Shown here: positions 14,324-30,496 of the stretch, one piece after another
Layout: each line of letters opens with the position of its first letter
Numbering within the stretch: the stretch's first letter is position 1
Assembly: GCA_015488115.1 (NCBI GenBank)
Contig: WFOK01000023.1
Span: 1 to 54,325 of the forward strand
Reading direction: 5' to 3'
Length of the DNA stretch: 54,325 nucleotides
From: Mariprofundaceae bacterium
GTDB lineage: Bacteria > Pseudomonadota > Zetaproteobacteria > Mariprofundales > Mariprofundaceae
Translations under genes and position numbers: made by a program
The notes under the pieces: model-generated
What the model was told of the DNA's origin: nothing
The model's input: the letters and a program-made list of their open reading frames with translations, nothing else
Databases searched by the model: none

Positions 14324-15634
14324 ATGACTCCATCATTCAGATGGATCATGCTCTTCCTTTTTTTTGCAGGACTCCTTGCGTGCCTCTGCCCCACTGCCAA
14401 TGCGGCAGGCTGGGACACCAGCATCGACTTCCGGACGCGTCTCCAGTCATTTGCAAATCGCGATTTCAACGCAAGCCTCCGCGATGATCAGTGGTCTTTC
14501 GACAATCGTCTCTACCTCAAGATGCATGGCAACCTCGGAGCCGGCCTCTCAGCCTGGCTGCAGCCACAGGCCGTCTTCATCAGCAATCATGCACCCAACG
14601 GCACGAGCCAGCGCCTCACACAGGCGGATTTGCTTCAAGCCTGGTTGCAGTATGATGTGGAAACCCAAGGCACCCGGTTCAGCGTAAGATTTGGCCGACA
14701 ACAACTGGTCTATGGTGACCAGCGTCTGTTGGGCCACCTTGGCTGGAAGGACGTAGCCCGAACCTTTGACGGCATCAAGCTCATGCTTCATCGTGATCAC
14801 TTGAGACTCGACGTGTTTGCGGTTCACCCCGCCGACATCGGTCAGATGACGCCAAATCCTGCCTCCCCCCACGGCAGTGCGTTGGTCACGTGGGAAGACC
14901 GAACGCTCATCGGCGGCTATGGAACATGCTTCATCGGCACAAAAACAGGGGTGGATGCCTATTTCATCAACTGGAGACATAATCAGCGCGCCGCTGTTGG
15001 AAAAGGGCGGAACGTCCAGACCTTCGGCGTACGAACGTTTGGCTCTTGGCAGGGATTCGATGCCACGTTCGAGGCGGCCTTTCAGCGCGGCACATGGCAA
15101 AACGGCATCGCCCAGAATGCCTCGGCATTCGCGGCAAAGGCGGGGTATTCCCTTGAGTTCTGGCATACGCGAGTCGGCATCGAATACGATTTCAGCCCCG
15201 GGGATGACAAGGCGGACCCAGCCACACACAAGAATTTTGTCTTCCCCTTTCACACCAACCACATGCATTATGGTGAAATGGACTACTTTTCCTGGGCAAA
15301 CATGAAGGACTTTCGCATTTCACTGAGCACCTCCCCCATCAGCGGCCTGACGTTCACCGGGAGCGTTCATTTCCTTTCCCTCGACAAGGCCCGGGGCGAT
15401 TGGCTCAATGTCGTTGGCACGGGCACGGTGTTCCCAGGTGCGCCCAGCTATATCCAGACCCGCGCGGGGACAGAGATTGACCTCAAGGCCATCTACAAAA
15501 CGCCCCGCGTTCCCGGCCTGGCACTGGTGGCGCAATACGCCCTGTTCAATCCCGGGGCTGCAGTCGCCGAGCGCAATGGTGGCCGCGCCGACACGGCCCG
15601 GTTTGCCTACGCATTCGCGCATTATGTCTTCTGA
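14324..15634 (+). CDS. outer-membrane porin, alginate-export (AlgE-like) family
   Basis: 436 residues with a signal peptide (FRWIMLFLFFAGLLACL, cleavage after TANA) and alternating beta-strand pattern to a terminal aromatic (HYVF). Motifs such as FRTRLQSF, LQAWLQYD and FSVRFGRQQLVYGDQRLLG are typical of the alginate-export porin family. In a nitrate operon it more plausibly serves as an outer-membrane channel for nitrate than for alginate; that is inference from context. It starts 13 bp after the transporter; the upstream ATG at 14300 is possible but gives a poorer signal peptide. Its end overlaps the kinase gene by 11 bp. Confidence 0.82.
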   Translation: MTPSFRWIMLFLFFAGLLACLCPTANAAGWDTSIDFRTRLQSFANRDFNASLRDDQWSFDNRLYLKMHGNLGAGLSAWLQPQAVFISNHAPNGTSQRLTQADLLQAWLQYDVETQGTRFSVRFGRQQLVYGDQRLLGHLGWKDVARTFDGIKLMLHRDHLRLDVFAVHPADIGQMTPNPASPHGSALVTWEDRTLIGGYGTCFIGTKTGVDAYFINWRHNQRAAVGKGRNVQTFGVRTFGSWQGFDATFEAAFQRGTWQNGIAQNASAFAAKAGYSLEFWHTRVGIEYDFSPGDDKADPATHKNFVFPFHTNHMHYGEMDYFSWANMKDFRISLSTSPISGLTFTGSVHFLSLDKARGDWLNVVGTGTVFPGAPSYIQTRAGTEIDLKAIYKTPRVPGLALVAQYALFNPGAAVAERNGGRADTARFAYAFAHYVF

Positions 15635-17354
15635 GCCGCTGGGCACCCCAGTGGAAGCGCCACGTATTCTGGCCGGACAGGCCAGCAGTGCCGGCATCAA
15701 GCCGCATAACGAAGACAATTGCGGCATCCACATTCCCCGCAACCGTTCCGAACTGGCGCACAAGGGCATTGTGGCTGTGATTGCCGATGGCGTTGGCTCC
15801 AGCGAAGCCGGACGTGAGGCTGCCGAATATTGCGTGCTTGGTTTCATTGCCGATTACTACAGCACGCCGGAATCCTGGAGCGTCAAGACCTCGGGGCAAC
15901 GCGTCATCCGCGCCATCAATGCCTGGCTTTACAGCCAGGCACAACGGCGAGGAATGGGCATGGCTTCCACCATGGCCGTGGTCATCCTCAAGTCCGCCAG
16001 CGCCCACCTGTTTCACGTCGGGGATTCCCGCATCTGGCTACTGCGCCATGGCGAGCTGCACCAACTCACCCAGGATCACCGACTGATCGTGGATCGTCAC
16101 AAGTCCTTCCTGGCACGTGCCATAGGCGGCGAGCATGAGGTGCACGTCGATTATGACCGCATCATGCTGGAAGAAGGCGACCGCCTCATGCTGACGACAG
16201 ACGGCGTCCATGACTGGCTGGATGCCGGACAGCTGGCATCCATGGCCGGCAACAATCATCCTGAGGAGGCGGCGCAGAACATCATCGAGGCAGCGCGACG
16301 GGCTGGCAGCGATGACAACCTGACTTGCCAGATCATCGAAATGGTTGCGCTTCCAGACATGAGCGGCGAAGAGTTCTTCCGCCGGTTGACGGAGCTTCCG
16401 TTTCCGCCCCCGCTGAGCGCTGGCATGAACTTCGATGGCTACCGGATCATCCGCGAACTGCATGCGAGCCCCACCGTGCAAGTCTACCTGGCCGAGGATC
16501 CGGAAGCGCCCGTGGATAACAACCCTGTTGTGCTGAAAACGCCTTCCGTTCACTTCGAGGACGACCCGGCCTACATCGACCGTTTCGTTCATGAGGAATG
16601 GGTGGGACAACGGCTTGATCACCCGAATGTTTTCAAGGTTCTGAAACCAAGGCGAAAGCGACGCTTCCTCTATTACGTGGCAGAATACCTGGACGGACAA
16701 TCATTGGCACAGTGGATGCTCGACCACCCCCGGCCGGAACTGAGCGAGGTACGCCGCATCGCTCATCAGATCATCGCGGGATTGCGTGCATTTCATCGGC
16801 GAGAGATGGTGCATCAGGACATCAAGCCCGAGAACATCATGATCGACCGCCACCAGCAGGTAAAGATCATCGACTTCGGCTCCACGTTCGTGGCCGGGCT
16901 CGACGAAATACATTCCCCCCTCGCGCGTCCCGATGTTGAGGGCACGGCAAACTACATTGCTCCGGAGCTGTTCGATGGCTTTCTGCCATCGCCAAAATGC
17001 GACATGTATTCACTGGGCGTAACGCTGTATGAAATGCTCTCGGGTGGACATTTCCCTTATGGAAGCGTTGATCGGGCCCGCAGACACCGCCGCTACGATT
17101 ACACGCCCATTCGGCATTACAACCGTGATGTGCCAATATGGATGGATGAAGCGATCCGCCGCGCCGTGCATCCGGACCCCGATCGCCGCTACGGCACCTT
17201 CTCCGAATTCGAGACTGACCTGAATCACCCGAACCCGAGCTTGATGAAGTCCACATCGCCTCTGCTCGAACGTGATCCCGTGACCTTCTGGCGAGGACTT
17301 GCCATCATCCTGTTTGCCGTAAACCTCACCCTGCTGCTCCTGCTGTCGAGATAA
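15624..17354 (+). CDS. PP2C phosphatase / Ser-Thr protein kinase fusion, membrane-anchored
   Basis: 576 residues. The N-terminal PP2C domain (about 15-235) has NEDN at 29-32, IADGVGSSEAG, GMASTMAVV, HVGDSRIW and SDDNL, covering the metal-binding aspartates. The kinase domain (about 270-540) has a Lys in VVLKTP (residue 305), HQDIKPEN (catalytic Asp 399), DFG (Asp 417) and APE. The glycine loop is degenerate and the HRD motif reads HQD. A single hydrophobic segment ends the protein, so both domains probably face the cytoplasm. P. aeruginosa has a similar protein next to nirBD and the nitrate transporter. The ATG at 15624 lies inside the end of the porin gene, implying coupling. Confidence 0.9.
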   Translation: MSSEPLGTPVEAPRILAGQASSAGIKPHNEDNCGIHIPRNRSELAHKGIVAVIADGVGSSEAGREAAEYCVLGFIADYYSTPESWSVKTSGQRVIRAINAWLYSQAQRRGMGMASTMAVVILKSASAHLFHVGDSRIWLLRHGELHQLTQDHRLIVDRHKSFLARAIGGEHEVHVDYDRIMLEEGDRLMLTTDGVHDWLDAGQLASMAGNNHPEEAAQNIIEAARRAGSDDNLTCQIIEMVALPDMSGEEFFRRLTELPFPPPLSAGMNFDGYRIIRELHASPTVQVYLAEDPEAPVDNNPVVLKTPSVHFEDDPAYIDRFVHEEWVGQRLDHPNVFKVLKPRRKRRFLYYVAEYLDGQSLAQWMLDHPRPELSEVRRIAHQIIAGLRAFHRREMVHQDIKPENIMIDRHQQVKIIDFGSTFVAGLDEIHSPLARPDVEGTANYIAPELFDGFLPSPKCDMYSLGVTLYEMLSGGHFPYGSVDRARRHRRYDYTPIRHYNRDVPIWMDEAIRRAVHPDPDRRYGTFSEFETDLNHPNPSLMKSTSPLLERDPVTFWRGLAIILFAVNLTLLLLLSR

Positions 17355-17477: not shown

Positions 17478-18068
17478 TCATGAGTCAAACGCCCAGGCAA
17501 GCCAACGGGATCGACCCCAGCCAGCCATCTCGATGATCAGCAGTGCAAGCACCGCCAATGTCGAGCCGATCAGCAAGGCAACCGCTGGTCCGAACAACCA
17601 TAGCACACTCGCCTCGGCTCCCTGCGGACCTAGCTCCACCGTTCGCAACCCCATCAAAATCCATGCTGGCGGATAAAGCAATGCACCAAGTCCAAAACTC
17701 CAGCCCAATAAACGCTTCCAGATCGACTTCAATGAAGAAGCGGCAACCAGCAGTAGCATAATGATGACGAGCATTCCAATACCCATGAAATGAATATGAC
17801 CGCGCAGCAGCCTCTGCATCGCATCCGTCGCCAGGCTGCCTGAATGGGAGTGCTGCCCTTGCAACATGCTGTCCATGTCGTGCCCATGCATCATATCATC
17901 CGCATGGTCATGGGGTTCCATGATTTGGGACATAAGGGCGCTCTGTCGCTCAAAATCGCCGTGCAATTGTTCATGGTGCGTAGCCAGATAAACTGCCCAC
18001 AGTTCGCCACACAATAATGCCAGCATTCCCATCAGCAAACCGTGGCGGACAAGACGTATTCTTTTCAT
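17478..18068 (-). CDS. membrane protein with His/Met-rich periplasmic segment
   Basis: 196 residues, not recognised. One N-terminal hydrophobic segment is followed by a polar stretch rich in His, Met and Asp (about residues 45-80, with several HDH, HGH and HSH clusters), then three membrane segments starting at GHIHFMGIGMLV. The His-rich loop suggests metal binding. It overlaps the preceding 61-residue membrane protein gene by 4 bp (ATGA). Both follow the cytochrome-porin gene but lie beyond its terminator. It converges with the kinase gene; the 123-bp gap between them shows no terminator. Confidence 0.7.
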   Translation of the reverse strand: MKRIRLVRHGLLMGMLALLCGELWAVYLATHHEQLHGDFERQSALMSQIMEPHDHADDMMHGHDMDSMLQGQHSHSGSLATDAMQRLLRGHIHFMGIGMLVIIMLLLVAASSLKSIWKRLLGWSFGLGALLYPPAWILMGLRTVELGPQGAEASVLWLFGPAVALLIGSTLAVLALLIIEMAGWGRSRWLAWAFDS

Positions 18069-18250
18069 GATACGCCTCCATCATCAGCTTGAACCACCCT
18101 GCAGCGAAGCCTGCGGGACTGATAATTTCCAATGCAAGTCACCAGTAATACGATGAAAATCACCAGATACATCAAAAGCACCTCCCCGGTTTGGTAATGA
18201 ATTGTGTCACTGAAAAAGGTTCCAAGTTTTGATCCTTCCTGAATATGCAT
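18065..18250 (-). CDS. small single-span membrane protein
   Basis: 61 residues with one hydrophobic segment (EVLLMYLVIFIVLLVTCI, about residues 23-40) and a basic C-terminal tail. AAGGAG lies six bases before the ATG, which argues for real translation despite the small size. It is translationally coupled to the 196-residue His-rich membrane protein and is probably its partner. Function unknown. Confidence 0.65.
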   Translation of the reverse strand: MHIQEGSKLGTFFSDTIHYQTGEVLLMYLVIFIVLLVTCIGNYQSRRLRCRVVQADDGGVS

Positions 18251-18314: not shown

Positions 18315-19679
18315 TCAGAAAGCCAGATCAACGGCCATCAATCCTGTCGTGAAATCCTGAAGCGTTGTACCCGCCAGTGTCATGCCGGCATTGGTGACCA
18401 AATTGCTCGTACGTGTGGCTGATGCAATGGCCTGCACATTTTCGGCAATCTGATAGGCACCATACAGCGTCAAGTGCTGAGTTGCCTTGGGCTTGAACTT
18501 CGGCATGCCCCCCATCTGCAGCTCAGCCTGGCTATAATCCCATTTTCCGCCAATCATCAACCCTTCGCTAAAAATCCATTCACCAGCCACCGTAAAGGCC
18601 TTGACCTTCAGCGTCTTTCCCGCGGCATTGCGATTCTTGCCAAACGTAAATGCCCCCCATGCCTGCAAGGGCTCTCCATAATTGATCGCAAAATCAACTC
18701 CATAGCGGGAAACATCGGTGAAGGTCATTGGCGTGGCCACACCCATCATATTCATATACATGGCCGATTCCCCGCCCATTAGATCGCTTGACCAGTTCTT
18801 CGCCTGGTAGTAGTAAATTCCGACGATATGATCACCCATGATCTCCTGGGCCAGTCGCGCAAAGACTCCCTGGGCTAAGCGATTGTTCAGATTAGTATTC
18901 TTGCCATAGTTGAAATAGGCGAGATTGTAAGCTGTGCCGATGCCGGTGTCGCCATCGGTCGTTCCATGAATGGCCACTCCATCGCCCATCATCAACATCG
19001 TGCCTCCATTCATGATCGCTGCATCCACGGTACCAAAGCCAAGTGGCCTCCGTGACATCATTGTCATGCCATAGCCGACATTGGTCTGCACTCGGCCAAC
19101 ACGAATCTTCAACAGATCGCTGACATAATATCCGCCTTCAAGCATGCCGATGCCGTTCTGATTGGCATCCAGCCACCAGAACCAGTTGTCATATGAGCCG
19201 GATGAAATAAGTCCCAATTCCCCGAAGCCAAACTTGAAATTGCGAACCAAGCGGCCTGTGGCCGGATCCTCGATCAGGGCACCATCAAGCATGCCGAACT
19301 GATGTCCCGGCATGGCCGGCACGACCTGACCAGCCGCCGTCACACCCTCGATCGGTCCCGCACCGGAATACAAAATCTGAGTCCGCAACGTGAACGGGAA
19401 GTTGCTCGGAACAATAGCCTTGTCACCTAAATCAGCGTTTTTGCCAGGACCGGCCTGCATGTCCAGATCATCACGACCAGCGGCAAAGCGAAAGCCCCGC
19501 TCGCGAAACGCAACCCCCATCTTGGTCAATTTTGGAAACATCGTGTGGCATGAATTGCAGGACAGACCGTACTTTCGGGCAAAGACCGGAATCGCATCCG
19601 CATCCTCGGCGAAAAAGGCCAACGTGCCAACCAATGCAAAAGAGCAGACAAGCATCGTCATCATTAGTTTTTTTCTCAT
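18315..19679 (-). CDS. Cyc2-like fused monohaem cytochrome c / outer-membrane porin
   Basis: 454 residues. A signal peptide ending near ADA (residue 29) is followed at once by a single c-type haem site, CNSCH at 41-45, in the context FARKYGLSC and FPKLTKMGVAFRERGF. The remaining 390 residues show the alternating pattern of a beta-barrel ending in VDLAF. This layout, with a haem domain plugged onto a barrel of about 16 strands, is that of Cyc2 and related porin-cytochrome fusions, which carry electrons across the outer membrane in iron oxidisers. Family membership is inferred from architecture; the substrate (Fe(II) or another donor) cannot be told. GGAGGG lies nine bases before the ATG. Two TTCCCG-N4-CGGGAA-type sites lie upstream and a strong terminator follows. 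Confidence 0.78.
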   Translation of the reverse strand: MRKKLMMTMLVCSFALVGTLAFFAEDADAIPVFARKYGLSCNSCHTMFPKLTKMGVAFRERGFRFAAGRDDLDMQAGPGKNADLGDKAIVPSNFPFTLRTQILYSGAGPIEGVTAAGQVVPAMPGHQFGMLDGALIEDPATGRLVRNFKFGFGELGLISSGSYDNWFWWLDANQNGIGMLEGGYYVSDLLKIRVGRVQTNVGYGMTMMSRRPLGFGTVDAAIMNGGTMLMMGDGVAIHGTTDGDTGIGTAYNLAYFNYGKNTNLNNRLAQGVFARLAQEIMGDHIVGIYYYQAKNWSSDLMGGESAMYMNMMGVATPMTFTDVSRYGVDFAINYGEPLQAWGAFTFGKNRNAAGKTLKVKAFTVAGEWIFSEGLMIGGKWDYSQAELQMGGMPKFKPKATQHLTLYGAYQIAENVQAIASATRTSNLVTNAGMTLAGTTLQDFTTGLMAVDLAF

Positions 19680-19736: not shown

Positions 19737-19752
19737 AGAAACTTCAATGCCA
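19737..19752 (-). promoter_or_regulatory. degenerate sigma-54 promoter candidate for the cytochrome-porin gene
   Basis: On the minus strand this reads TGGCAT-TGAAG-TTTCT. The -24 half is good, but the -12 half has T in place of the conserved G. No better GG-N10-GC match is present in the 240-bp gap. The paired activator sites would lie about 134 and 165 bp upstream of the predicted start, within the range of sigma-54 enhancers. Confidence 0.35.
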
Positions 19753-19852: not shown

Positions 19853-19868
19853 TTCCCGGAAATGGGAA
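19853..19868. promoter_or_regulatory. activator-site candidate A (TTCCCG-N4-TGGGAA)
   Basis: One mismatch to the dyad TTCCCG-N4-CGGGAA found intact at two other places in this locus. Its centre is 31 bp from site B, about three helical turns, as expected for cooperative binding of NtrC-family dimers upstream of the cytochrome-porin gene. Confidence 0.6.
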
Positions 19869-19883
19869 TCACCACCGATTCCC

Positions 19884-19899
19884 TTCCCGTATCCGGGAA
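19884..19899. promoter_or_regulatory. activator-site candidate B (TTCCCG-TATC-CGGGAA)
   Basis: Perfect 6-bp inverted repeat with a 4-bp spacer. With site A and the GGGAATC/GATTCCC repeat between them it forms a nested palindrome over 19851-19901. Probable target of the response regulator encoded at 20774-22060. Confidence 0.65.
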
Positions 19900-19919: not shown

Positions 19920-20633
19920 TCAAAATTCCAGCTCGAGATTCAGCTTGAGATTCCCATAGGCCAGGCCAGCATTGACATCCATAAGCCAGCCCAGCTCGAC
20001 CTCGAAATCATCGAAGGGCTCCATGGTCAGCACAGGCCCGACAAGATGCGACTGCCGATCTGGAGGCAGGAAGCGATTGATTGCGCCGAGGCCACCATAG
20101 GCCTCAACAGCCAGCTCGATGGCCTGAAAAGCATACCGGGAGCGCCATGCATAACCCAGAAACGGCCCCCCTTCTCCCGATGCCAGCGTCTGCTTCAGGG
20201 CCAGGTTGGCCGTGTGCGTCCAGTGTCCGATTCGCTTTTCCAGCAAAAGCTTGCCTTCCAACACATCGGACTTGCGGCTGGATGGCGCAGCCCAGATGTA
20301 TTCCGCGTAAAGCCCCCAGTCCAGGCCCACCCATTTCGGGGCTGACAAGACAAAGATATTTTCCCATTTGCTCTCGGCATAGGCGTACCCACCACCGTTG
20401 CCGGGTTTCTCGAACACTATATACAGGCCGCTGCTCCACCAGTCGCGCAAGCCATATGAAAGTTCAAGCTGATGTTTCGTGAAGCCGTCCTTTGCCGGAT
20501 TGGCATCGAACACGACATCAGTCTGGGTTTCCAGTTCCAACACGCCCTGCTCGGCATGCGGGGAATAAACCTTCTTGGCCCAGGAAACCTGTGGCACAAG
20601 CAACAGCATCATCAAGGCAATCATTTTCGGCAC
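19920..20633 (-). CDS. small outer-membrane beta-barrel protein
   Basis: 237 residues with a signal peptide (PKMIALMMLLLVPQVSWA) and a strand-rich mature part beginning KKVYSPHAEQGVLELE and ending in LELEF, typical of an outer-membrane barrel. Function is not known to me; similar-looking proteins occur in other proteobacteria. I chose the GTG at 20633, six bases after AAGGAG, because the sigma-54 promoter at 20659-20674 predicts a transcript start near 20648. The upstream ATGs at 20651 and 20666 would therefore not be transcribed. It lies between the response regulator and the cytochrome-porin genes, so it may act with the latter. Confidence 0.75.
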   Translation of the reverse strand: MPKMIALMMLLLVPQVSWAKKVYSPHAEQGVLELETQTDVVFDANPAKDGFTKHQLELSYGLRDWWSSGLYIVFEKPGNGGGYAYAESKWENIFVLSAPKWVGLDWGLYAEYIWAAPSSRKSDVLEGKLLLEKRIGHWTHTANLALKQTLASGEGGPFLGYAWRSRYAFQAIELAVEAYGGLGAINRFLPPDRQSHLVGPVLTMEPFDDFEVELGWLMDVNAGLAYGNLKLNLELEF

Positions 20634-20658: not shown

Positions 20659-20674
20659 TGCAACAATCATGCCA
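20659..20674 (-). promoter_or_regulatory. sigma-54 promoter of the outer-membrane protein gene
   Basis: On the minus strand TGGCAT-GATTG-TTGCA matches TGGCAC-N5-TTGCW at all but one base and keeps the invariant GG and GC. The predicted start near 20648 leaves a 15-base leader with AAGGAG before the GTG start codon. Paired activator sites are centred about 86 and 118 bp upstream. Confidence 0.75.
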
Positions 20675-20725
20675 TTAATCTGTTTCTCAAGGGCATTGAA
20701 CAACAGCGAAAATCTTGGCCGGGAT

Positions 20726-20741
20726 TTCCAGTTTCCGGGAA
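20726..20741. promoter_or_regulatory. activator-site candidate C (TTCCAG-TTTC-CGGGAA)
   Basis: Differs from the perfect dyad only in one half (TTCCAG). It is centred 32 bp from site D and about 86 bp upstream of the predicted sigma-54 start. Confidence 0.6.
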
Positions 20742-20757
20742 GGATCGCGAAAATACC

Positions 20758-20773
20758 TTCCCGTCTTCGGGAA
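20758..20773. promoter_or_regulatory. activator-site candidate D (TTCCCG-TCTT-CGGGAA)
   Basis: Perfect 6-bp dyad with a 4-bp spacer, directly after the stop codon of the response-regulator gene and about 118 bp upstream of the predicted start of the outer-membrane protein transcript. Confidence 0.65.
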
Positions 20774-22060
20774 TCAGTCTTCCAACTTTCGATACAGTGT
20801 GGAAAGACCTATGCCGAGTTGCCTGGCCGCACGGGCCTTATCTCCCCCGCATTCCGCGATGGTGCGCCTGATCCAGTCCCTCTCGAATTGCTGCACCGCC
20901 GCTGCAAGTGTTTGCGGCTCGTCGGCAACATGCTCCTCCCCGTCATCCTTGAAGATCAGGGATCGCTCGAGATAATTACGCAGTTGCCTTACGTTGCCGG
21001 GCCAGCTCTGCTGCCGGATCTTCTGCACCAGCCCTAAGGGGAGCGACACGTCCAAAAGCCCCATCTCGGTCGCCAGCTCGGCGTAGATCCGTTCGGCCAG
21101 GGCGATCAGATCCTCCTGTCTGTCCCGCAATGGCGGAATGTCGATGGTCAACACGGACAGGCGGTAATAGAGATCGCTGCGAAAGCCCTCTCCCTGAACG
21201 AGTTCTTCGGCAGGCACATTCGTTGCCGCGATGATGCGCCCCAGGAAGCGCTGGTCCTTGGTGCTGCCTAGGGGACGAAACACGCCGTCATCAAGCACAT
21301 GCAACAGCTTCGCCTGCAACAACAGGGGCATGTTCCCGATCTCATCCAGGAACAGCGTTCCCTCGGCAGCCTCGTGCAGCAATCCCTTCTTGTGCTGATC
21401 GGCACCAGTGAATGCCCCCTTGCGATAGCCGAAAAGCTCAGACTCGAGAAGGTTTTCAGGGATGGAAGCGCAGTTGACGCTGACAAACGGCTTCTCACAG
21501 CGCTTGCTGCTAGTGTGGACCAACTTGGCCAGCAGGCCCTTCCCCACGCCGGTCTCACCGGTGATCAGCACCGGCGAATTGGAAGCCGCAGCCATCTCGG
21601 CCATCCGTCGCACGCGCTGCATAGCCCGAGAGTTGCCCAGAACCGCAAGCTTGCTCTCCGCCAACTTGCGTCGGGCCTTGCGACGCACCTGCCCGCGAAG
21701 CTGCTGCATCTCCTTCAGGCGATAAAGTCGGGCAAAGAGTTCGTCGAAACGGATTGGCTTGGTGATGTAGTCGTATGCCCCCTGGCGAATGGCCTGTATG
21801 GCCAGGTCGCGATAACCAAAGGCTGTCATGAATATCACCGGAATGTCGTGCGATTGCGCCTTACAGTAGCCCAGCACAGAAAAACCGTTTCCATCCGGAA
21901 GGTTGATATCGCTGAGAATCACCTCAGGGGTATCCTCTTCCAGACATCGAAGACCCTTATCCAGCGAGTCGGCCTCAAGCGTCTGGAATCCTTCATCCTG
22001 AAGCATCTCGGCGATGCCGGCGCAGATTCTTTGTTCATCCTCAATGATCAGCACCAGCAT
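20774..22060 (-). CDS. NtrC-family sigma-54 response regulator
   Basis: 428 residues in three domains. The receiver has Asp 51 (ILSDINLPDG) as phosphorylation site and Lys 101. The AAA+ domain has Walker A GETGVGKG at 168-175, the sigma-54-contacting GAFTGA at 215-220, and Walker B TLFLDE at 235-240. A Fis-type helix-turn-helix ends the protein (DKARAARQLGIGLSTLYRKL). I chose the ATG at 22060 because GGAGG lies five bases upstream; an ATG at 22075 lies before that site. It overlaps the kinase gene by 20 bp, so the two form one system. Likely targets are the dyads at 19.85-19.90 and 20.73-20.77 kb. Confidence 0.92.
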   Translation of the reverse strand: MLVLIIEDEQRICAGIAEMLQDEGFQTLEADSLDKGLRCLEEDTPEVILSDINLPDGNGFSVLGYCKAQSHDIPVIFMTAFGYRDLAIQAIRQGAYDYITKPIRFDELFARLYRLKEMQQLRGQVRRKARRKLAESKLAVLGNSRAMQRVRRMAEMAAASNSPVLITGETGVGKGLLAKLVHTSSKRCEKPFVSVNCASIPENLLESELFGYRKGAFTGADQHKKGLLHEAAEGTLFLDEIGNMPLLLQAKLLHVLDDGVFRPLGSTKDQRFLGRIIAATNVPAEELVQGEGFRSDLYYRLSVLTIDIPPLRDRQEDLIALAERIYAELATEMGLLDVSLPLGLVQKIRQQSWPGNVRQLRNYLERSLIFKDDGEEHVADEPQTLAAAVQQFERDWIRRTIAECGGDKARAARQLGIGLSTLYRKLED

Positions 22061-23558
22061 CGGAGCCTCCTTCATCCAACGGGAAGATCATCCGGAAACA
22101 ACATCCGTGTTCATCGTTGCGCAGCAGGATCAGGTCCCCATGCATGCGCCGCATCAGATCCCGGCTGATGGCCAAGCCAAGGCCACTCCCCTCGCCCCTC
22201 GGCTTGGTCGTGAACAAGGGAGAAAATATTTTCTCCTCGACCTCCCTTGACAGGCCGCCTCCCTGGTCGCTCACGTCGAGGTACATGGCTTTCTCATCCG
22301 CGCTTGCCTGGATCGCGATTTCATCGCCGACCCGAGAAACATCCACAGCATTGAGCAACAGATTGACTAAAACCTGCTGTACGACATCCTCAGCTACTAT
22401 AATCCCGGGCAGCGAATCCGGGATATCCACCCTGAAACGGATACGCTTGGAATGCTTCGCAAGCCGAACAAGCCCGAGAGCCGCCTCGATGCAGGCGTGA
22501 ACATCCAAGTCCTGAATCTGGCTTTCAGCATGACGCCCGAAATCGAGCACGTTGCGGATGATCCCTTCGGTCCGGTTCAGCTCTTCCATGCAGGCCGCCA
22601 GTTGCTGCCTGCAGGCCTCCAGGTCACCCTGTTCAAGCTTCCTGATGGCCAGTTCCTGCGAAACCCTTGCCGCAGCCAGCGGATTGCCGACCTCATGAGC
22701 AATACTTGCCGTCATCAAGCCCAGCGCATGCATCTTTTCCTGATGCGCGGCATAGCTCTTGGCTTGCACGAGCTCACGGTCACGCTGGTCAAGCGCCCTG
22801 CTCATCCGGTTCAACGCCCGAACGAGATCGCCGATCTCATTGTCACCAACATCCATCGTGACGGGAGAAAAATCGCCCCGACCAATGCGCCCCACCTCTC
22901 GTCGCAACAGCGAGAGCGGCCGGACAACACGCAGGAACACATAGCCGGCAACGCCAGCAAGGATGATAAACAGAGCTACGAGCGAAACGATAAAATCTTC
23001 CCGCATATCCAGATGCAGACCTCGCACCATCTGCATCGACACGTTAACCCCCTGATCCATGCTTTGATGCTTGCGTGACATGAACCATGAAAGCCTGCCT
23101 AGGGCCTGATCTAGCTCCTGCATCAGGATCGGCCCTTCCATGTTCCCGGTAGCAAACGGCAGGGAGAAGATGCGCATGGCCAGCGCATGAAGCCTTTCCA
23201 GGCTCTGGTCGAATTCGGCCCGTTCGTCAGGTTTCAGGTTCACCTCGCCAGCAAGTTGTTTCACCCGGAGCTCGGTCTGCCTGAATTTCCGAACATAGGA
23301 CGGTGAACCGGTAATCAGAAAATCATGGACATGCGCAACCATCGAGCGTACCCGCATCTCCAGGTCATGAAGGTGGTGACTCTCATGGTTAGCCTCCTCG
23401 ATCTTGACGGCCATGTCGTGAATGGTCGAGATGTCCCGCAACTGGTGCCAGCCAACAAATGCCACAAGGGAAAACACGACCAGCAGCAACAAGGCTAGGA
23501 CTGCGGTCATCCCCAAGCCCGGAAATGGCACGGCAGTCCTGCTAACTCTGCCTTGCAT
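22041..23558 (-). CDS. membrane sensor histidine kinase
   Basis: 505 residues. Two membrane segments (about 16-38 and 189-210) enclose a helical periplasmic sensor of 150 residues, followed by HAMP (about 211-263), a dimerisation helix with the phospho-acceptor in ASIAHEVGNPL (His 288), and an ATPase domain with NLLLNAVD, DQGGGL and GSGLGLAIS. It is the partner of the sigma-54 regulator downstream, with overlapping genes. I chose the ATG at 23558; a GTG at 23585 is in frame but has a weaker site. The sensor resembles four-helix-bundle ligand or redox sensors; no haem or metal motif is obvious. It overlaps the FTR-like gene by 17 bp. Confidence 0.9.
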   Translation of the reverse strand: MQGRVSRTAVPFPGLGMTAVLALLLLVVFSLVAFVGWHQLRDISTIHDMAVKIEEANHESHHLHDLEMRVRSMVAHVHDFLITGSPSYVRKFRQTELRVKQLAGEVNLKPDERAEFDQSLERLHALAMRIFSLPFATGNMEGPILMQELDQALGRLSWFMSRKHQSMDQGVNVSMQMVRGLHLDMREDFIVSLVALFIILAGVAGYVFLRVVRPLSLLRREVGRIGRGDFSPVTMDVGDNEIGDLVRALNRMSRALDQRDRELVQAKSYAAHQEKMHALGLMTASIAHEVGNPLAAARVSQELAIRKLEQGDLEACRQQLAACMEELNRTEGIIRNVLDFGRHAESQIQDLDVHACIEAALGLVRLAKHSKRIRFRVDIPDSLPGIIVAEDVVQQVLVNLLLNAVDVSRVGDEIAIQASADEKAMYLDVSDQGGGLSREVEEKIFSPLFTTKPRGEGSGLGLAISRDLMRRMHGDLILLRNDEHGCCFRMIFPLDEGGSDAGADH

Positions 23559-23970
23559 GCCTTTCCCGCTCCCGCTCTTCGGCACGATGCTTCAGCAGTC
23601 GTCCCTTGTCCGGTGTCGGATCCCGCACCAGACCATAGGCATCGCGACCTGGATGCTCCGGCGGCAGGTACTCAGTGATCGGCAGGCCCGATTCGGTCAC
23701 GAACAGCAAACAATGACAATATTTGTAGATCTGCATCTCGTCGCATGGACATATCCAGCTTCGCCGCTTGATCTCCTGCTGCTTGTCAGGGTAGAAGCGG
23801 CATGGACAAAGTGGCTTCCCCAATTCGTCAAGATGACGTGCCAGCCCAAGCACGACGGCCTCGGTCACTTCCGGGTCCGGATGCGTTGTCGTACCGGACT
23901 TGCGCGTATAATTCGCGACCAGTCGTCGGATGCGTTCCATGCTTTCCTTACTTGGCCCCGGATTGCTCAT
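23542..23970 (-). CDS. ferredoxin-thioredoxin reductase catalytic-subunit-like protein
   Basis: 142 residues. The protein carries CPC (Cys 55, 57), CPC (74, 76) and CHC (85, 87) with spacings of 16 and 8 residues, exactly as in the catalytic subunit of plant and cyanobacterial FTR. There, four of the cysteines ligate a [4Fe-4S] cluster and two form the redox disulfide. FTR reduces thioredoxin-type disulfides with electrons from ferredoxin. No variable (FtrA) subunit is seen. I prefer the second of two adjacent ATGs (23970), spaced six bases from GAGG. It is the first gene before the overlapping kinase and regulator genes and sits just past the MITE-like element. Confidence 0.85.
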   Translation of the reverse strand: MSNPGPSKESMERIRRLVANYTRKSGTTTHPDPEVTEAVVLGLARHLDELGKPLCPCRFYPDKQQEIKRRSWICPCDEMQIYKYCHCLLFVTESGLPITEYLPPEHPGRDAYGLVRDPTPDKGRLLKHRAEERERERHARQS

Positions 23971-23982
23971 CATCCACCTCGC

Positions 23983-24234
23983 TTAACCCGGATTTTTCAT
24001 GTGATCGCAAATGGATGGCGCCGGATGCGCGAGCTCGGGGCGCGCATGCAGGCAAGAAGCATGGCTGTCGCTATGCTTCGCAGCCAAAGACGTGCATCCA
24101 GCCCGTGCAGACAAGCCAAGCGCCGCGAAATGCGGGGCCCCATCTTCAACAACACGTCCATGCCGATGCAACCCCTTTTTGTGTTTCGACATTTCAAATC
24201 CCGGCGCATGGTCATCATGAAAAATCCGGGCTAA
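23983..24234. mobile_element. MITE-like element with 19-bp terminal inverted repeats
   Basis: TTAACCCGGATTTTTCATG at 23983-24001 is repeated inverted at 24216-24234 with a single mismatch. The 252-bp unit holds no convincing gene and fills the gap between ccdA and the FTR-like gene. Its right end supplies the TAG stop codon of ccdA. A TAA target duplication is possible but not clear. It looks like a non-autonomous insertion element; the parent transposase family is not identified. Confidence 0.65.
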
Positions 24235-24989
24235 ACCAACAAGCCTTCGATATCGGCCAGCGGCGGAAACAGGTCAAGCAGCCAACCGGACACGATGCTG
24301 AAGCTGCCCGCAAAGATCATCATGCCCACAATGATCAACAATCCCCCGGACAGTTTCTCGACAAGCACCAGATGACGGCGAAACCCTTGAGACCAGCGCA
24401 GAAATGCATCGGTCGCGAGTGCAGCCAGCAGAAATGGAATGGCTAGCCCGAAGGAATAGAGGGCAAGCAACGCAACCCCCCGCATCATTTCCTCTTGCGC
24501 GCCGGCTATCGCCAGGATGGCACCGAGAATCGGGCCCACACACGGTGTCCAACCAAACGCAAAGGCTGCCCCTAGCACCAGTGCGCCCATCCCCCTGCTT
24601 GCGTCCACTGCGCGAGCATCGAAACGCGCCTCCATCATCAGAAATGGAATTCGTATGAAGCCGGCGTAATGCAGTCCGAAGGCAACGATGACGATGCCAG
24701 CCACTTTCCCAAGTGAGGCCATATGCGCAAGCAGCCATTGTCCAATCATGGATGCGGAAGCGCCCAGCAGCACGAACACCATGCTGAATCCGGCAATGAA
24801 CCATAGCGACTGCACCACTGCCCGCCTACGAAGGGCAATGCCTGTGCCCGCTCCCCGGACCAGCCGCAGTTGCTCCACAGATTCCCCCGAGATATAGGAA
24901 AGATATGCCGGCACCAATGGCAGAACGCATGGGGAAAGAAACGACAACAAACCAGCCAGCCAGGCCCCGGCGAAGCTCACCTCAATCAT
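24231..24989 (-). CDS. ccdA: CcdA-type thiol-disulfide transporter
   Basis: 252-residue inner-membrane protein with six or more membrane segments. CcdA/DsbD-core proteins pass reducing equivalents from cytoplasmic thioredoxin to periplasmic thioredoxin-like proteins. The paired active cysteines are in SPCVLPLVPAYLSY (near residue 21) and TPCVGPILGAIL (near residue 150). The gene starts 9 bp after the copper ATPase stop. Its stop codon lies in the end repeat of the MITE-like element, so the last residues may not be ancestral. The TlpA-like protein at 30.6 kb is a plausible recipient. Confidence 0.9.
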   Translation of the reverse strand: MIEVSFAGAWLAGLLSFLSPCVLPLVPAYLSYISGESVEQLRLVRGAGTGIALRRRAVVQSLWFIAGFSMVFVLLGASASMIGQWLLAHMASLGKVAGIVIVAFGLHYAGFIRIPFLMMEARFDARAVDASRGMGALVLGAAFAFGWTPCVGPILGAILAIAGAQEEMMRGVALLALYSFGLAIPFLLAALATDAFLRWSQGFRRHLVLVEKLSGGLLIIVGMMIFAGSFSIVSGWLLDLFPPLADIEGLLV

Positions 24990-24998
24990 CGACTTTTC

Positions 24999-27707
24999 TC
25001 ACAAGCGAACGCGCCGCAGCCTGAGCGCGTTTGAAATCACCGACACCGACGAAAAGCTCATGGCCAGGGCCGCGATGATCGGAGACAACAACAGGCCGAA
25101 GACCGGGTACAACGCGCCGGCTGCCACAGGCACACCGGCAGAGTTGTAGACGAAGGCAAAGAACAGGTTTTGGCGAATATTGCGCATGACGGCGCGCGAC
25201 AGTCGGACCGCGCGTACGATGCCGGTCAAATCGCCCTTGACCAAGGTAATGCCTGCCGATTCCATCGCAACATCGGTGCCGGTACCCATCGCAATGCCAA
25301 CATCCGCGGCCGCCAGGGCAGGCGCATCGTTGATGCCGTCACCAGCCATCGCCACCACGCGTCCTTCGGAATGCAGGGCGCGCACGACCTCTGCCTTGCG
25401 CTCCGGCATCACCTCGGCTTCAAAGCGATCGATGCCTAGCTTCTTCGCAACCGCTTTCGCTGTATCGCGATTGTCGCCGGTCAGCATCACGACCATGAGA
25501 CCCTCCTTGTGCAAGGCCTCGATCGCGGCTGGTGTCGTCTCCTTGATCGGATCGGCCACGGCCAGTGCACCCGCCAGCCGACCGGAGACGGCAACATGGA
25601 TCACGGTTGCCCCCTGACGCTGGAAATTGCTCACCCACTGACGCAATCCGGATACATCGGCCCCCACCTCCGCCATCATTGCAGCATTGCCGAGCGCAAT
25701 CCTTTGACCATCAATGTCGGCGAACACCCCCTTGCCCGTGACGGAATGGAACGAAGATGGGCGCTTGGGTGCAAGCCCCCGTTCGGTTGCCGCGGCGATG
25801 ATGGCCTCCCCCAGTGGGTGCTCGCTGCCCATTTCCACGCTGGCCGCCCATGCCAGAAGCTGTCCCTCTTCAAAGCCCTCCACAGTCTTCAATGCCACGA
25901 GGGCGGGCTTGCCTTCGGTCAACGTGCCCGTTTTGTCAACGACGACAGTATCCACCTTCTCCATGGTCTCCAGCGCTTCCGCATTGCGAATCAACACGCC
26001 GACCTGGGCACCGCGACCGGTGCCGACCATGATCGAAATTGGTGTGGCCAGGCCAAGGGCGCAAGGACAGGCGATGATCAGCACCGCCACCGCATTCACA
26101 ACCGCATGGGCCAGACGCGGCTCGGGACCCCAGACGCCCCAGACCGCAAACGTGACCACAGCCACGGCAACCACGGCCGGTACGAAGTATCCGGCCACCT
26201 TGTCCGCCAATTTCTGAATCGGCGCCCTCGATCGTTGAGCCTCGGCAACCATCTGCACGATCTGCGCCAGCAGGGTTTCGCTTCCGACCTTCTCGGCCCG
26301 CATCAACAGGGTTCCGTTGCCGTTCACGGTCGCCCCGATCAGCTTATCGCCCTCGCGCTTGCCCACCGGCACCGGCTCGCCGGTTACCATCGATTCATCC
26401 ACATGACTTTCGCCCTCGACGACCACGCCATCCACCGGCACCTTCTCGCCCGGCCTGATGCGTAACAAGTCACCAGGCCGAACCTGGTCCAGCGGCACGT
26501 CCTTCTCGCTTCCGTCTTCCATGATCTTGCGCGCGGTCTTCGGGCTCAGTCCCAGCAACATCTTGATTGCTTCGTTCGTCTTTGAGCGAGCGCGCAATTC
26601 CAGCACCTGCCCCAGCAGCACCAGGGTCGTGATCACCGCTGCAGCCTCGAAATACACGTCGACAAGCCCGCCTTCCATGCGCATCACAGGCGGGAAGATG
26701 TCGGGAACGAGTAGCGCGACAACGCTGTAAAGCCAGGCCACGCCGACGCCCAGTCCGATCAGTGTGAACATGTTCAGGTTCCAGCTTTTCACTGACAGCC
26801 AGAAACGATCGAAAAACGGCCAGCCACCCCACAGCACGACGGGGGTCGCAAACAGGAACTCAATCCATTGCACATGCCGCATCGACAAAAATGAAGGCAG
26901 CCAGGAAGGCGCCAGATCGGCCACCATGGCCAAGGCGAAGACTGGCGCGGCCAATACGACGCTGAAGCGAAAGCGACGGCTCATGTCTTCCAGTTCGGGA
27001 TTGGCCTCCTCGGCGGCAACCGTCCTGGGCTCCAGCGCCATCCCGCACTTCGGGCAGCTTCCCGGCTCGTCGCTGACGATTTCCGGATGCATCGGGCAGA
27101 CATATTCGGTCTTTTCAGCAACGGGCATCGGGGCGGCCATCGGCTCCAACGCCATGCCACAGATCTTGCAGATGCCCGGCCCTTGCTGTTCCTGCCCCGG
27201 GCACATCGGGCAGAAATACATGGCATCCTTGTCCGCCTCCGTCTTCGGTGCAGGCTTGTGCTCGTGGTGGCAGGACGTGTCCTTGCCCTCGTATGCCTCG
27301 GGGTCACCCCGGAACTTCTCGATGCAGTGCTCGGAGCAGAACAGATATTCGTGGCCGTGATGATCTACACGGTTGGTCGAGTGCCGCGGCACCTTCATGC
27401 CGCAAACCGGGTCGATGGCTGCATCTTCTGGCAGCCATTCGTTCGGGTTGTCATTGAAGCGTGCCAGGCAATGTTCGCTGCAGAAACGGAACACTGCGCC
27501 GCGGAACGTGCGCTGATGAGGTGCATCTTCTGCCACCCTCATGCCGCAAACCGGATCGCGGTCAGGAAGTCCCACATAGCGGTGCGGTTCCCTGGCAAAA
27601 CGTTCCCTGCATTGCTCACTGCAGAAATGCCAGCGCTGACCGTTGATTTCCATACTTCTGGCCTCATTCTCTTCGACGTTCATGCCACACACCGGATCGG
27701 TTCTCAT
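24999..27707 (-). CDS. copA: CopA-type copper-translocating P1B ATPase with three YHS domains
   Basis: 902 residues. The N-terminal 230 residues hold three YHS modules in tandem (each DPVCGM followed by FCSE.C; about 1-49, 50-97, 98-145) and two short Cys-rich metal-binding modules (YFCPMCPG with [10 protein letters not shown], and YVCPMHPE with [10 protein letters not shown]). The ATPase core has the CPC transport motif ([13 protein letters not shown]), the phosphorylation site DKTGTLTEG, the HP motif GSEHPLGEA and [10 protein letters not shown]. The CPC motif supports Cu(I)/Ag(I) export. The usual GMxCxxC domain is absent. I chose the ATG at 27707 with AGGAGA upstream. Confidence 0.92.
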
Positions 27708-27778
27708 GGTCTTCTCCTGTTCCTTTCCATCATTTAAGCAGGACGGACAAGGGATCTCCCCTGTCCGCCTTCCTCGAC

Positions 27779-28096
27779 TCAATCTTCCGGGTTGTCCGCC
27801 CGCTCATGGTTTTCGTGCCTGCCGCTTTCCACGTGCTTGCAATGCCGTGACCCCGACATCATCGATCTCCGATCGCCAGTGCACGGATTGGCGCCGGCTG
27901 GATGATGCATGGCGTGCATGTCCTTCTGCTCGTCACCCTGTTGCCGAGCCTCGGCTCCCATCATTGGATGATGCATACCCTCCATGTGCTTGCGATGCTG
28001 GGCATCGCCCATGGCCCCTGTTTCGCCAGCACCCCCGATCCCGGAAAGCATCAGCATCAAACCCAGCACTCCCATCCATCTCGTTGCCTTTTGCAT
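27779..28096 (-). CDS. small secreted His/Met-rich protein, probable metal binder
   Basis: 105 residues: a signal peptide ([22 protein letters not shown]) and a short mature part rich in His and Met ([18 protein letters not shown]), with two cysteines. Such composition is common in periplasmic copper-binding proteins of cus/cop loci. AAGGAG lies six bases before the ATG at 28096; longer frames start in non-coding sequence. It lies 71 bp upstream of the copper ATPase gene on the same strand. Confidence 0.7.
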
Positions 28097-28261
28097 GACT
28101 TGCTCCTTTCTTCTCTCACTTCCAGGGTGCTCCGTGACAAGCCTTGGTCGTCCCCGGAGAGCACCATCCGGGGATGATTCATTGAGATGCAGCATGGCCA
28201 TGGCGCTGAATGCAAGGGCATACATCCACGACGCATCGCTGTTGTCTGCGGGGTTTCAGCA

Positions 28262-29191
28262 TCAGCAGTCTCCTGCTGGACGCATTGTCTGCTGCACATG
28301 TTGTTGCAATGTCGCCGGATTCGACATCAGTTGCTCAAACCACGGAGTCATCAGCGCGCGTGCCTGGCGGAATGCCTGCCGCTGAACCTCATCACCGCCC
28401 TCAATCCGGGGCCAACTTAGATCGGGGAGGCGGGGCTCCAAAACGACAATCAGTGCAGCACAACCACATGGACATTGACGGAAAACCAGGGGAGCGCTTC
28501 CGAGATACCAGGGACGGTTGCGAAAGATCAGGGTATCCAGAATGGCCACCATCGGCCACCCATGACCAGTGGCTTCAACCCCATGGAAGCCCTGCAGGCG
28601 CGTTGCTACATGATGCACGATCACCACATCGAGATGATGACGGCAGCAGATCGCATCCGTCGGTCCCAGATCAATCACGCCACCATCGCAATAATAGCGA
28701 TCGCCGATTCTCACTGGCTGGTAAAGCAAGGGCAGACAGGCACTGGCAACCATCGCCGTTGCAAGCTCGCCTCTGGAAAACATGACCTTCTCTCCATTGG
28801 CAAGGCAGGTGGCAATCGCGTGAAACGGTATGTGACAATCTTCAAATGATGCGGCCGACAAGTACCGCCGGCAAAACGCCAATGGCACATCGTGACCGGC
28901 AATGCCGGTAAAGCTGCGACCACGATCCCGCACCAGCCGCCACAATGATCGTGGCAACGAGCCGGGCCGCCAGAAATCCTGCTGCCGCAGGCCCGCAAGC
29001 GCCGACAGCCAGTCGGCCAAAGACGTGCCGCTGGCATAAATGCCGCCGACAATGGCGCCAGCACTGCATCCGGCCATGGCCGAAAAACGCACCCCCATCT
29101 CGGTCAGGGCCTGAAGCAGGCCGGTATGGGCATAGACGCCGCGCACCCCGCCAGCGCTCAGCACCAGTCCGATTCGGAGAGGATGATGCAT
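28262..29191 (-). CDS. patatin-like phospholipase
   Basis: About 309 residues of the patatin-like family. The oxyanion-hole glycines (LSAGGVRGVYAHTGLL), the nucleophile Ser in AGCSAGAIVG and the Asp of CDGGVIDLGP form the complete Ser-Asp dyad. No signal peptide is evident, so it is probably cytoplasmic or membrane-peripheral. It starts about 20 bp after the PII-like gene; a GTG at 29206 with GAGG nearby is an alternative start. A lipase inside a copper-efflux operon is unexpected. A 165-bp gap with an 8-bp hairpin (28151-28174) but no U run separates it from the next gene. Confidence 0.85.
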   Translation of the reverse strand: MHHPLRIGLVLSAGGVRGVYAHTGLLQALTEMGVRFSAMAGCSAGAIVGGIYASGTSLADWLSALAGLRQQDFWRPGSLPRSLWRLVRDRGRSFTGIAGHDVPLAFCRRYLSAASFEDCHIPFHAIATCLANGEKVMFSRGELATAMVASACLPLLYQPVRIGDRYYCDGGVIDLGPTDAICCRHHLDVVIVHHVATRLQGFHGVEATGHGWPMVAILDTLIFRNRPWYLGSAPLVFRQCPCGCAALIVVLEPRLPDLSWPRIEGGDEVQRQAFRQARALMTPWFEQLMSNPATLQQHVQQTMRPAGDC

Positions 29192-29211
29192 CAGCCGTTC
29201 ACCCACGCACC

Positions 29212-29541
29212 TCAGCCATGACCATTGTCCGGAACCTCCGCTTTTGTCCGGATACAGAACAGGTGTTCGACCGGCGATACGGCGACAATGCCGTCACCCG
29301 ACAATCCGGTATGCGCGACATTCACGATGCTGCGCGCTATGTCCTGCGCTCTGAACGCCGGGCAAAAGATCTCGATGCGTGCATAGCGCGTCATCAGATC
29401 CGAGCGGTAGAAATTCCTGTATTCGCCATAGCCGTGCACCTGACTGACGCTGATGCCATCCACCTGCATGGACTGCAGAGCGCGCTCGACCGCCTCGAGC
29501 CTTTCTGTCGCGATAATGGCTGTGATTTTCCGATAATTCAT
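29212..29541 (-). CDS. PII-like signalling protein (heavy-metal-efflux-associated type)
   Basis: 109 residues with the PII fold pattern: ITAIIATERLEAVERAL at the start and GDGIVAVSPVEHLFCIRT near the end, matching the GDG...V...RT signature. The T-loop region (VHGYGEYRNFYRSDL) does not resemble the GlnB/GlnK T-loop with its modifiable Tyr. A PII-like subgroup (PII-NG) is known to neighbour CusA-type efflux genes, which fits this position. Ligand and partner are unknown; nucleotide sensing linked to efflux is inference. Confidence 0.82.
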   Translation of the reverse strand: MNYRKITAIIATERLEAVERALQSMQVDGISVSQVHGYGEYRNFYRSDLMTRYARIEIFCPAFRAQDIARSIVNVAHTGLSGDGIVAVSPVEHLFCIRTKAEVPDNGHG

Positions 29542-29550
29542 GGCCTGCTC

Positions 29551-30042
29551 CTATCCTGCCCTGGGAGGGCGGTTACAGCAGGCACCTGCCGGAACCGCCA
29601 GATTGTCCAGTTCATTGCGCTCGCTGTAGTGAACCCAGCGCCGACGCAAATGTTCCCAGCCGTGATCGATGGGACCTGCGCCGGCCTGCTCCAGCTCATG
29701 TTCGATCTGCGCCAATGTGATACAGGTCAAATCATATTCGACCTTGCAGCGACCATGGAGCACATCGGCCTTGCGCACCCCGGGCAATGCCGAAAGACAT
29801 GCATGAACCGCATCATCCGGCATACCCTGGATGCGAAAGCTTCGCTGCTTGACCACGGGCTCCCGCCCTTCCATCAAATATAGCTGGGGACGTGCAGCAA
29901 AATTTTGTCGGCAAATCAAGCTGCAAAGGCGATAGCGCACGCCCAGATGAACGTATTCAAAACCCGTCGCCATCACAGCTCGGCCGCAGACAGGGCAGGA
30001 TCCGCCCAGATCCGCTTCATCCCTGGCTTGCCGGATTTTCAT
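29551..30042 (-). CDS. YHS-type Cys-rich protein with HMA-like domain lacking CxxC
   Basis: 163 residues. The N-terminal half has CPVCGRAV and LCSLIC, a YHS/TRASH-like zinc-ribbon pattern for metal binding. The second half (about 67-125) follows the heavy-metal-associated fold (SFRIQGMPDDAVHACLSALPGV) but has Asp-Asp where metal-binding HMA domains carry CxxC. The C-terminal tail has a CC pair. It may be a cytoplasmic metal sensor or chaperone; the role is not established. It overlaps the upstream gene by 26 bp and precedes the PII-like gene by 9 bp. Confidence 0.65.
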   Translation of the reverse strand: MKIRQARDEADLGGSCPVCGRAVMATGFEYVHLGVRYRLCSLICRQNFAARPQLYLMEGREPVVKQRSFRIQGMPDDAVHACLSALPGVRKADVLHGRCKVEYDLTCITLAQIEHELEQAGAGPIDHGWEHLRRRWVHYSERNELDNLAVPAGACCNRPPRAG

Positions 30043-30472
30043 AGCTCACACCGACAAAATGCTTGGTTCCATCCTTGGTCTTGAACAACACCATCAGGCG
30101 ATGCTCCCCGGGATGGGCAAGGTCATAGGCTGCCATCCACCAAGGCCCCATCTTCATCATCATTTTTGATTCGGACGCCCCGTTCGGATGCACGACCTTG
30201 GAATTGACTGCCAGCAGTTTCACCGGCGCTTGTCCTTTTTCGACCTTCACCATCAAGTGATACGGCCCGCCCATCGGATTGTCCTGCACAGCCCTCATGA
30301 CATGGAAGCGAACCGTGTAGCCATCCACTGTCGCCTGCTCCATCCATGCTCCCGACTGCATGCTCATGCCCTGCCCATGCATGCCGCCCCCGGTGGAGCC
30401 AGCCATTGCCGATGGAACCACTGCCATGACCAATGCAGCAGCCAGCATGCCCATTCGAATGCTTCCTTGCAT
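30017..30472 (-). CDS. periplasmic Met-rich protein, YtkA/FixH-like fold
   Basis: 151 residues with a signal peptide (SIRMGMLAAALVMAVVPSAMA) and a Met-rich start to the mature protein (GGGMHGQGMSMQSGAWME), followed by an immunoglobulin-like beta domain (VDGYTVRFHVM, GGPYHLMVKVEKG, HRLMVLFKT). Met clusters suggest Cu(I)/Ag(I) binding. The ATG at 30472 has GGAGG seven bases upstream, better placed than for the ATG at 30478. The fold assignment is tentative; the cus-operon position supports metal handling. Confidence 0.65.
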   Translation of the reverse strand: MQGSIRMGMLAAALVMAVVPSAMAGSTGGGMHGQGMSMQSGAWMEQATVDGYTVRFHVMRAVQDNPMGGPYHLMVKVEKGQAPVKLLAVNSKVVHPNGASESKMMMKMGPWWMAAYDLAHPGEHRLMVLFKTKDGTKHFVGVSYENPASQG

Positions 30473-30496
30473 ACTCATTCCTCCTTTGTCGTCCGT

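Follow-up and report, generated by a model that had tools for sequence, protein, structure and literature searches.

PORCYT, a methionine-rich Cyc2-like cytochrome-porin encoded in copper islands of Zetaproteobacteria

The window, which is the whole 54,325-nucleotide stretch of Mariprofundaceae DNA analysed here, encodes a Cyc2-like fused single-haem cytochrome-porin of 454 residues, named PORCYT in this study (positions 18315–19679; genes, promoters, and protein features lie on the minus strand unless stated otherwise). PORCYT may be a paralogue of the iron oxidase Cyc2 that has specialised in copper and functions as a copper(I)-linked electron conduit, perhaps as a cuprous oxidase, and we assign a probability of about 0.5 to this reading. 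The original prediction, made from the sequence alone, described a Cyc2-type or uncharacterised fusion in a setting not known to have been reported. The architecture, the two-component system, and the copper locus were confirmed, but the protein type itself is not new and very probably matches the Cluster 3 Cyc2 noted by McAllister et al. 2020 (PMC7029218). What is new is that PORCYT orthologues sit in copper islands with genes for CopA, CusA, DUF411, and Met/His-rich proteins; that the clade is rich in methionine, with about 26 methionines per protein and the conserved ones concentrated in predicted outer loops; and that a dedicated sigma-54 two-component system adjoins PORCYT, whose upstream region in nearly every genome contains a -24/-12 box, which is conserved, and a palindrome of the enhancer type.

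Architecture and phylogenetic position of PORCYT

PORCYT begins with a signal peptide of 29 residues ending in EDADA (19593–19679), and its first haem cysteine is residue 41, 12 residues past the signal peptide, as had been proposed. The haem c site CNSCH (residues 41–45, 19545–19559) is the only CXXCH motif of PORCYT, and none of the further proteins called within the window contains one. The Cyc2 motif consists of AXPXFAR[Q/K][T/Y], a single CXXCH, and PXL, which in PORCYT correspond to A29-I-P31-V-F33-A-R-K-Y37 (AIPVFARKY), C41NSCH45, and P49KL51, in agreement with the consensus of the AXPXFAR-CXXCH-PXL type given by Keffer et al. 2021 (PMC8406198). The haem potential reported for Cyc2PV-1 is 208 mV (PMC8406198).

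The AlphaFold2 model, calculated with 25 orthologues, has a pTM of 0.72 and a mean pLDDT of 70.8, and contains 16 long strands forming a predicted beta-barrel of residues 97–453 (18321–19391). The C-terminal residue is phenylalanine, as is typical for outer-membrane barrels. Cyc2 proteins are defined by a C-terminal 16-strand outer-membrane barrel and at least 365 residues, and PORCYT is predicted to share this organization, with an OprO-like barrel. The top Foldseek matches of the model are exclusively porins, and OprO has the best query TM-score, 0.54, among the matches listed. OprO served as the template for Cyc2 in the study of Keffer et al. 2021 (PMC8406198), and the reported structural matches of Cyc2 itself are OprO and OprP. 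The haem plug (residues 16–94) and parts of the methionine-rich loop are modelled with pLDDT below 50, and therefore the geometry of the ligands cannot be read from the model. The cytochrome-barrel architecture of the original prediction is thus borne out by the Cyc2 motif, the 16-strand model, and its porin-like matches, and PORCYT was not placed in a family with a known role other than electron transfer. Searches of Pfam, NCBIfam, and PDB sequences gave no confident family for PORCYT, and the multicopper oxidase domains that characterise CueO and PcoA gave no Pfam or NCBIfam match. PORCYT is not a chance open reading frame, because full-length orthologues with 53–68 % identity are present in more than 20 genomes.

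The orthologues belong to Mariprofundus, Ghiorsea, and other Zetaproteobacteria, plus one outlier, and include those of two type strains in culture, M. ferrooxydans PV-1 (L049) and M. micogutta ET2 (L051). Judging by these names, the host of the window DNA is almost certainly zetaproteobacterial. With 40 % identity, L072 is the most divergent of the orthologues, and it does not come from a named zetaproteobacterium. A profile search of 398 genomes drawn from the phylum matched PORCYT in two families of this order only, and the distribution is patchy, with about one third of same-family genomes carrying the gene. A scan of the genome collection with PORCYT as a single protein returned no match, whereas an alignment query did recover the orthologues; a plasmid search with PORCYT had no match. 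Some Ghiorsea genomes have two PORCYT loci (L058 and L065; G163 and G273).

The window genome (1.69 Mb, 98.65 % complete) also encodes an ordinary Cyc2 of the Cluster 1 type (430 residues, FARQTGAACLSCH, G000:C7:11906-13198), and this type is present in nearly all relatives as well. At G036:C314 (locus L017), two matches to ordinary cyc2 with the same length and score are separated by about 2.2 kb, apparently through a tandem duplication. In the phylogenetic tree, which the original prediction had suggested building, the PORCYT clade forms its own long branch with a support of 100/100, separate from the ordinary zetaproteobacterial Cyc2, and PORCYT is thus not a member of Cluster 1, the clade of Cyc2 from neutrophilic iron oxidisers. 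Cluster 1 Cyc2, including Cyc2PV-1, resembles PORCYT in the signal peptide, the AXPXFAR-CXXCH-PXL haem plug with one haem, and the 16-strand barrel. PORCYT differs from it in belonging to a separate clade, in having FARKY in place of FARQT, in a two to three times higher methionine content, and in its copper locus and own regulator.

McAllister et al. 2020 found Cluster 1 cyc2 in all zetaproteobacterial OTUs and Cluster 3 additionally in fewer of them, the functional difference between the two being unknown (PMC7029218), and the function of Cluster 3 was rated the most uncertain among Cyc2 clusters (Keffer et al. 2021, PMC8406198). Judging by the FARKY motif, the host range, and the two reported cyc2 types, PORCYT very probably represents the zetaproteobacterial Cluster 3 Cyc2. 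Both are a second cyc2 type with FARKY, found in a minority of Zetaproteobacteria including Ghiorsea and Mariprofundus. In contrast, the neighbourhood, regulation, and metal-ligand features described here are absent from McAllister 2020 and Keffer 2021.

Copper genes and methionine residues of the PORCYT clade

The copper genes of the window span positions 24231–37524, which confirms that PORCYT lies beside a copper-handling locus. Pfam matches identify a CcdA/DsbD-type transmembrane protein (24231–24989), a CopA-type P-type ATPase with YHS/HMBD metal-binding domains (24999–27707), and a DUF411 protein (31210–31665). Locus comparison adds a Met/His-rich secreted protein, P30017 (30017–30478), which is a conserved member of the copper cassette, and the CusA-CusB-CusC type efflux genes (31662–37524). 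The P30017-type family often has two copies per copper locus and no Pfam match. The copper locus also contains a patatin-like phospholipase (28262–29206), kept in M. micogutta (58 %), and a P-II-like protein (29212–29541), which recurs next to CusA in relatives.

Neighbourhoods were compared by mapping the window genes with tblastn around each PORCYT orthologue in 27 loci, many of which are on short contigs. Copper genes other than that of TM196, a membrane protein described below, were found near PORCYT in 19 of the 27 loci (CopA, CusA, DUF411, P30017), and TM196, the histidine kinase, and the sigma-54 regulator in 22 each. As a control, copper genes were near ordinary cyc2 in none of 17 loci of related genomes, within up to about 10 kb on each side. 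In the locus of the distant orthologue L072, CusCBA and a His-rich secreted protein adjoin the PORCYT gene. The copper link of the PORCYT clade is strong, and a link of cyc2 to copper islands was not found in the open-licence PMC full texts searched. In genomes that lack PORCYT, the cassette CusCBA-P30017-TM196-CopA-DUF411 stands alone, and therefore the genes for the kinase, the regulator, and PORCYT constitute a module added to the cassette.

Downstream of PORCYT, the second gene of its transcription unit encodes a 61-residue protein with a single transmembrane segment (18065–18250), which has homologues in four other loci (L047, L048, L052, and L070). The stop codon of this gene is overlapped by the gene for TM196 (17478–18068), a membrane protein of 196 residues whose periplasmic loop is rich in histidine and methionine and which has a four-helix model and the conserved motifs HE-LHG-FE and HSHSGSLA-DAMQRLLRGHIH-MG. 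TM196 is present in 11 of 12 PORCYT genomes (Fisher p 3e-4) and is a conserved member of zetaproteobacterial copper cassettes, also of those without PORCYT. No confident family was found for TM196 in Pfam or PDB sequence searches, and a fold search had no match at E<=0.001, its weak hits being four-helix membrane proteins, MAPEG enzymes and styrene oxide isomerase among them. Since the fold matches are weak, we claim no haem or copper role for TM196. On the plus strand, a fusion of a PP2C phosphatase and a Ser/Thr kinase with a C-terminal transmembrane helix (15624–17354) adjoins genes for a NarK-type nitrate transporter and an alginate-export-type porin.

Members of the PORCYT clade contain 26.2 methionines per protein on average, compared to 10.0 in ordinary Cyc2 and 5.8 in distant FARKY homologues, and methionine makes up 4.4–7.0 % of the mature proteins of the clade versus 0.8–3.2 % of ordinary Cyc2. 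Among columns with at least 90 % conservation, methionine occupies 17 of 173 in the PORCYT clade, one of 60 in ordinary Cyc2, and none of 33 in the distant FARKY homologues. Such counts are inflated by the greater uniformity of the PORCYT clade (63 % mean identity versus 41 %), and the share of methionine among conserved columns (10 % versus 2 %) and the raw methionine content are therefore the fairer measures. Eleven of the 17 conserved methionine columns are in predicted extracellular loops (p 3e-4), with the predicted topology placing positions 123 and 130 in loop 1, 205–228 in loop 3, and 307–318 in loop 5. Conservation and model topology together delimit two methionine-rich predicted extracellular loops, between strands 5 and 6 (M205, 207, 208, 223, 228, 230, and 231; 18987–19067) and between strands 9 and 10 (M307, 309, 311, and 318; 18726–18779). 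The conserved methionine-rich loops thus line the predicted outer face and the pore of the barrel. Clusters of thioether groups are typical ligands of Cu(I) and Ag(I). Within the window, the methionine content of PORCYT ranks third, behind a small permease and TM196. The methionine conservation does not extend to L072, which keeps 11 of the 23 aligned methionines of the window PORCYT, no more than expected from its overall identity.

Two-component system, promoters, and enhancer sites

A dedicated two-component system at the PORCYT gene, which the original prediction had proposed, was verified by Pfam matches and locus comparison. The response regulator (20774–22075) consists of a receiver, an AAA+ domain, and a Fis helix-turn-helix, belongs to the sigma-54-dependent type, and adjoins PORCYT in nearly all loci. 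The sensor histidine kinase (22041–23585) has conserved histidines and methionines in its periplasmic domain (N--SH-LH--E and NMEGP in the alignment of 21 orthologues), which is consistent with metal sensing. Directly upstream of the kinase gene is that of a ferredoxin-thioredoxin-reductase beta-chain-like protein (23542–23973), in the same order as in M. ferrooxydans PV-1 (L049). The system resembles the copper-sensing CusRS and CopRS in the combination of a histidine kinase and a regulator in a Cu/Ag efflux locus and in the histidines and methionines of the sensor domain. It differs from them in that the regulator is a sigma-54 activator of the NtrC/ZraR class with a distinct palindrome.

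The PORCYT gene is preceded by a sigma-54-like -24/-12 box, TGGCATTGAAGTTTCT (19737–19752), which has a constant position in the zetaproteobacterial loci. In every such locus aligned, TGGCAN-N5-TTTCT is found between -94 and -70 relative to the start codon, and the flanking bases vary. The -12 element in most of these promoters is TTTCT and not TTGCA/T (GC to TC), with TTGCT/A or ATGCT in a few. The palindrome TTCYC-N6-GRGAA, a putative enhancer, is located about 100 bp farther upstream than the box and occurs in 25 of 28 PORCYT upstream regions, compared to 0.02 expected from shuffled sequences. Three copies in the window are exact: two of them precede PORCYT (19853–19868 and 19884–19899), and the third, TTCCCGTCTTCGGGAA (20758–20773), lies upstream of the gene for OMP248. 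The whole genome has nine against roughly six expected by chance, according to our estimate, and three of the nine are at the PORCYT locus.

OMP248 is a small outer-membrane-barrel-like protein (19920–20624) found in five loci (L051, L066, L069, L074, and the window). Its gene has a near-perfect sigma-54 box, TGGCATGATTGTTGCA (20659–20674), which overlaps the annotated start of the 248-residue protein (region 20659–20773), so that the start is probably at 20624, to which we have re-set it. The -24/-12 promoter, enhancer, and sigma-54 activator that together define a sigma-54-dependent regulon are all present at the PORCYT locus. From the palindromes and sigma-54 boxes before PORCYT and OMP248 it follows that both genes are very probably under the control of the neighbouring sigma-54 regulator.

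Putative role in copper(I)-linked electron transfer

Of the iron-oxidase porin suggested by the original prediction, the Cyc2-type architecture stands, but the copper context and methionine-rich loops favour copper over the default role in iron oxidation. We infer the oxidation of Cu(I) by PORCYT from sequence and gene context. In the proposed mechanism, the kinase would sense periplasmic copper or silver, and the sigma-54 activator would bind TTCYC-N6-GRGAA and switch on PORCYT, the downstream small membrane proteins, and OMP248. The methionine-rich vestibule may bind Cu(I) at the outer membrane or beyond it, with the environment or CusCBA as the source. The electron would pass from Cu(I) through the haem plug to periplasmic cytochromes and a terminal oxidase, and the less toxic Cu(II) would remain outside the cell. 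The haem potential of Cyc2PV-1, 208 mV, is compatible with the acceptance of an electron from Cu(I). PORCYT could thus fill the role of a cuprous oxidase, which elsewhere falls to CueO or PcoA, by means of the electron-conduit design of Cyc2. The more specific proposal that it is an outer-membrane cuprous oxidase, which oxidises Cu(I) at the surface, feeds the electron into respiration, and provides a haem-based alternative to CueO and PcoA, is tentative and stands at somewhat less than even odds.

The likeness to CueO and PcoA is an analogy of role, comprising the proposed Cu(I) oxidation in a copper-resistance locus and a methionine-rich substrate region. PORCYT differs from them in being an outer-membrane haem conduit and not a soluble periplasmic oxidase, with no relation in sequence or fold. 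A search of the window genome for a CueO/PcoA-type multicopper oxidase gave no match at E<=1e-20, and the same search was positive in E. coli. However, PORCYT and PcoA-type multicopper oxidases are not mutually exclusive. Three PORCYT genomes (G011, G018, and G025) encode both, so that PORCYT is no simple replacement, and the absence from the window genome is only supportive.

The metal handled by PORCYT is probably copper and not iron, and the protein should hence not count as evidence of iron oxidation. The cyc2 gene, including Cluster 3, is a genomic marker of iron oxidation in FeGenie (PMC7005843), and both Cluster 1 and Cluster 3 have been described as involved in iron oxidation (PMC11427306). 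If the PORCYT clade serves copper, calls based on cyc2 overcount iron oxidisers, and the question of what separates the two clusters in Zetaproteobacteria (PMC7029218) receives a direct and testable answer. If PORCYT is a cuprous oxidase, copper(I) could become a usable electron donor, and the zetaproteobacterial Cluster 3 Cyc2 would not be an iron oxidase. The orthologues in the cultured type strains make the copper response measurable.

The principal alternative is that PORCYT is a second Fe(II) oxidase for other iron or oxygen conditions, and that its copper neighbours reflect vents rich in both metals. The full Cyc2 signature and predicted fold agree with this, as do the iron-oxidising hosts, the oxidation of Fe(II) by the Cluster 3 protein Cyt572 of Leptospirillum (PMC8406198), and the counting of Cluster 3 as iron oxidation by FeGenie and later papers (PMC7005843, PMC11427306). 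We nevertheless consider it unlikely, at about half the weight of an even chance, given the copper linkage of 19 of 27 PORCYT loci versus none of 17 for ordinary cyc2, a methionine enrichment not found in ordinary Cyc2, and the locus's own sigma-54 system and enhancer sites. In addition, no conserved iron-pathway gene was seen in the PORCYT loci in the tblastn comparison.

The methionine-rich outer loops would equally suit the binding of Cu(I) or Ag(I) without redox chemistry. PORCYT could accordingly be a barrel for copper or silver passage or binding, with the haem plug as a gate or redox sensor and without net electron transport, and such a function fits both the Cus efflux genes of the locus and the small barrel OMP248, which belongs to the same regulon. 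It is an improbable one, since it would render the complete conserved haem domain of Cyc2 superfluous, and an exit through the outer membrane is already supplied by CusC. Less probable again is a reversed flow, in which electrons would leave through PORCYT to reduce Cu(II), Ag(I), or some other oxidised metal outside the cell and so serve its uptake or detoxification. FeGenie lists Cluster 3, present in Geobacter, as possible iron reduction (PMC7005843), but the reduction of copper would increase its toxic form within an efflux-type island, and the hosts are metal-oxidising chemolithotrophs. The patchy distribution among same-family genomes could also indicate that PORCYT has an unrelated function and rides on mobile metal islands as a passenger, a reading to which we give very little chance, as the gene order, promoter, enhancer, and methionine pattern are conserved across many genera.
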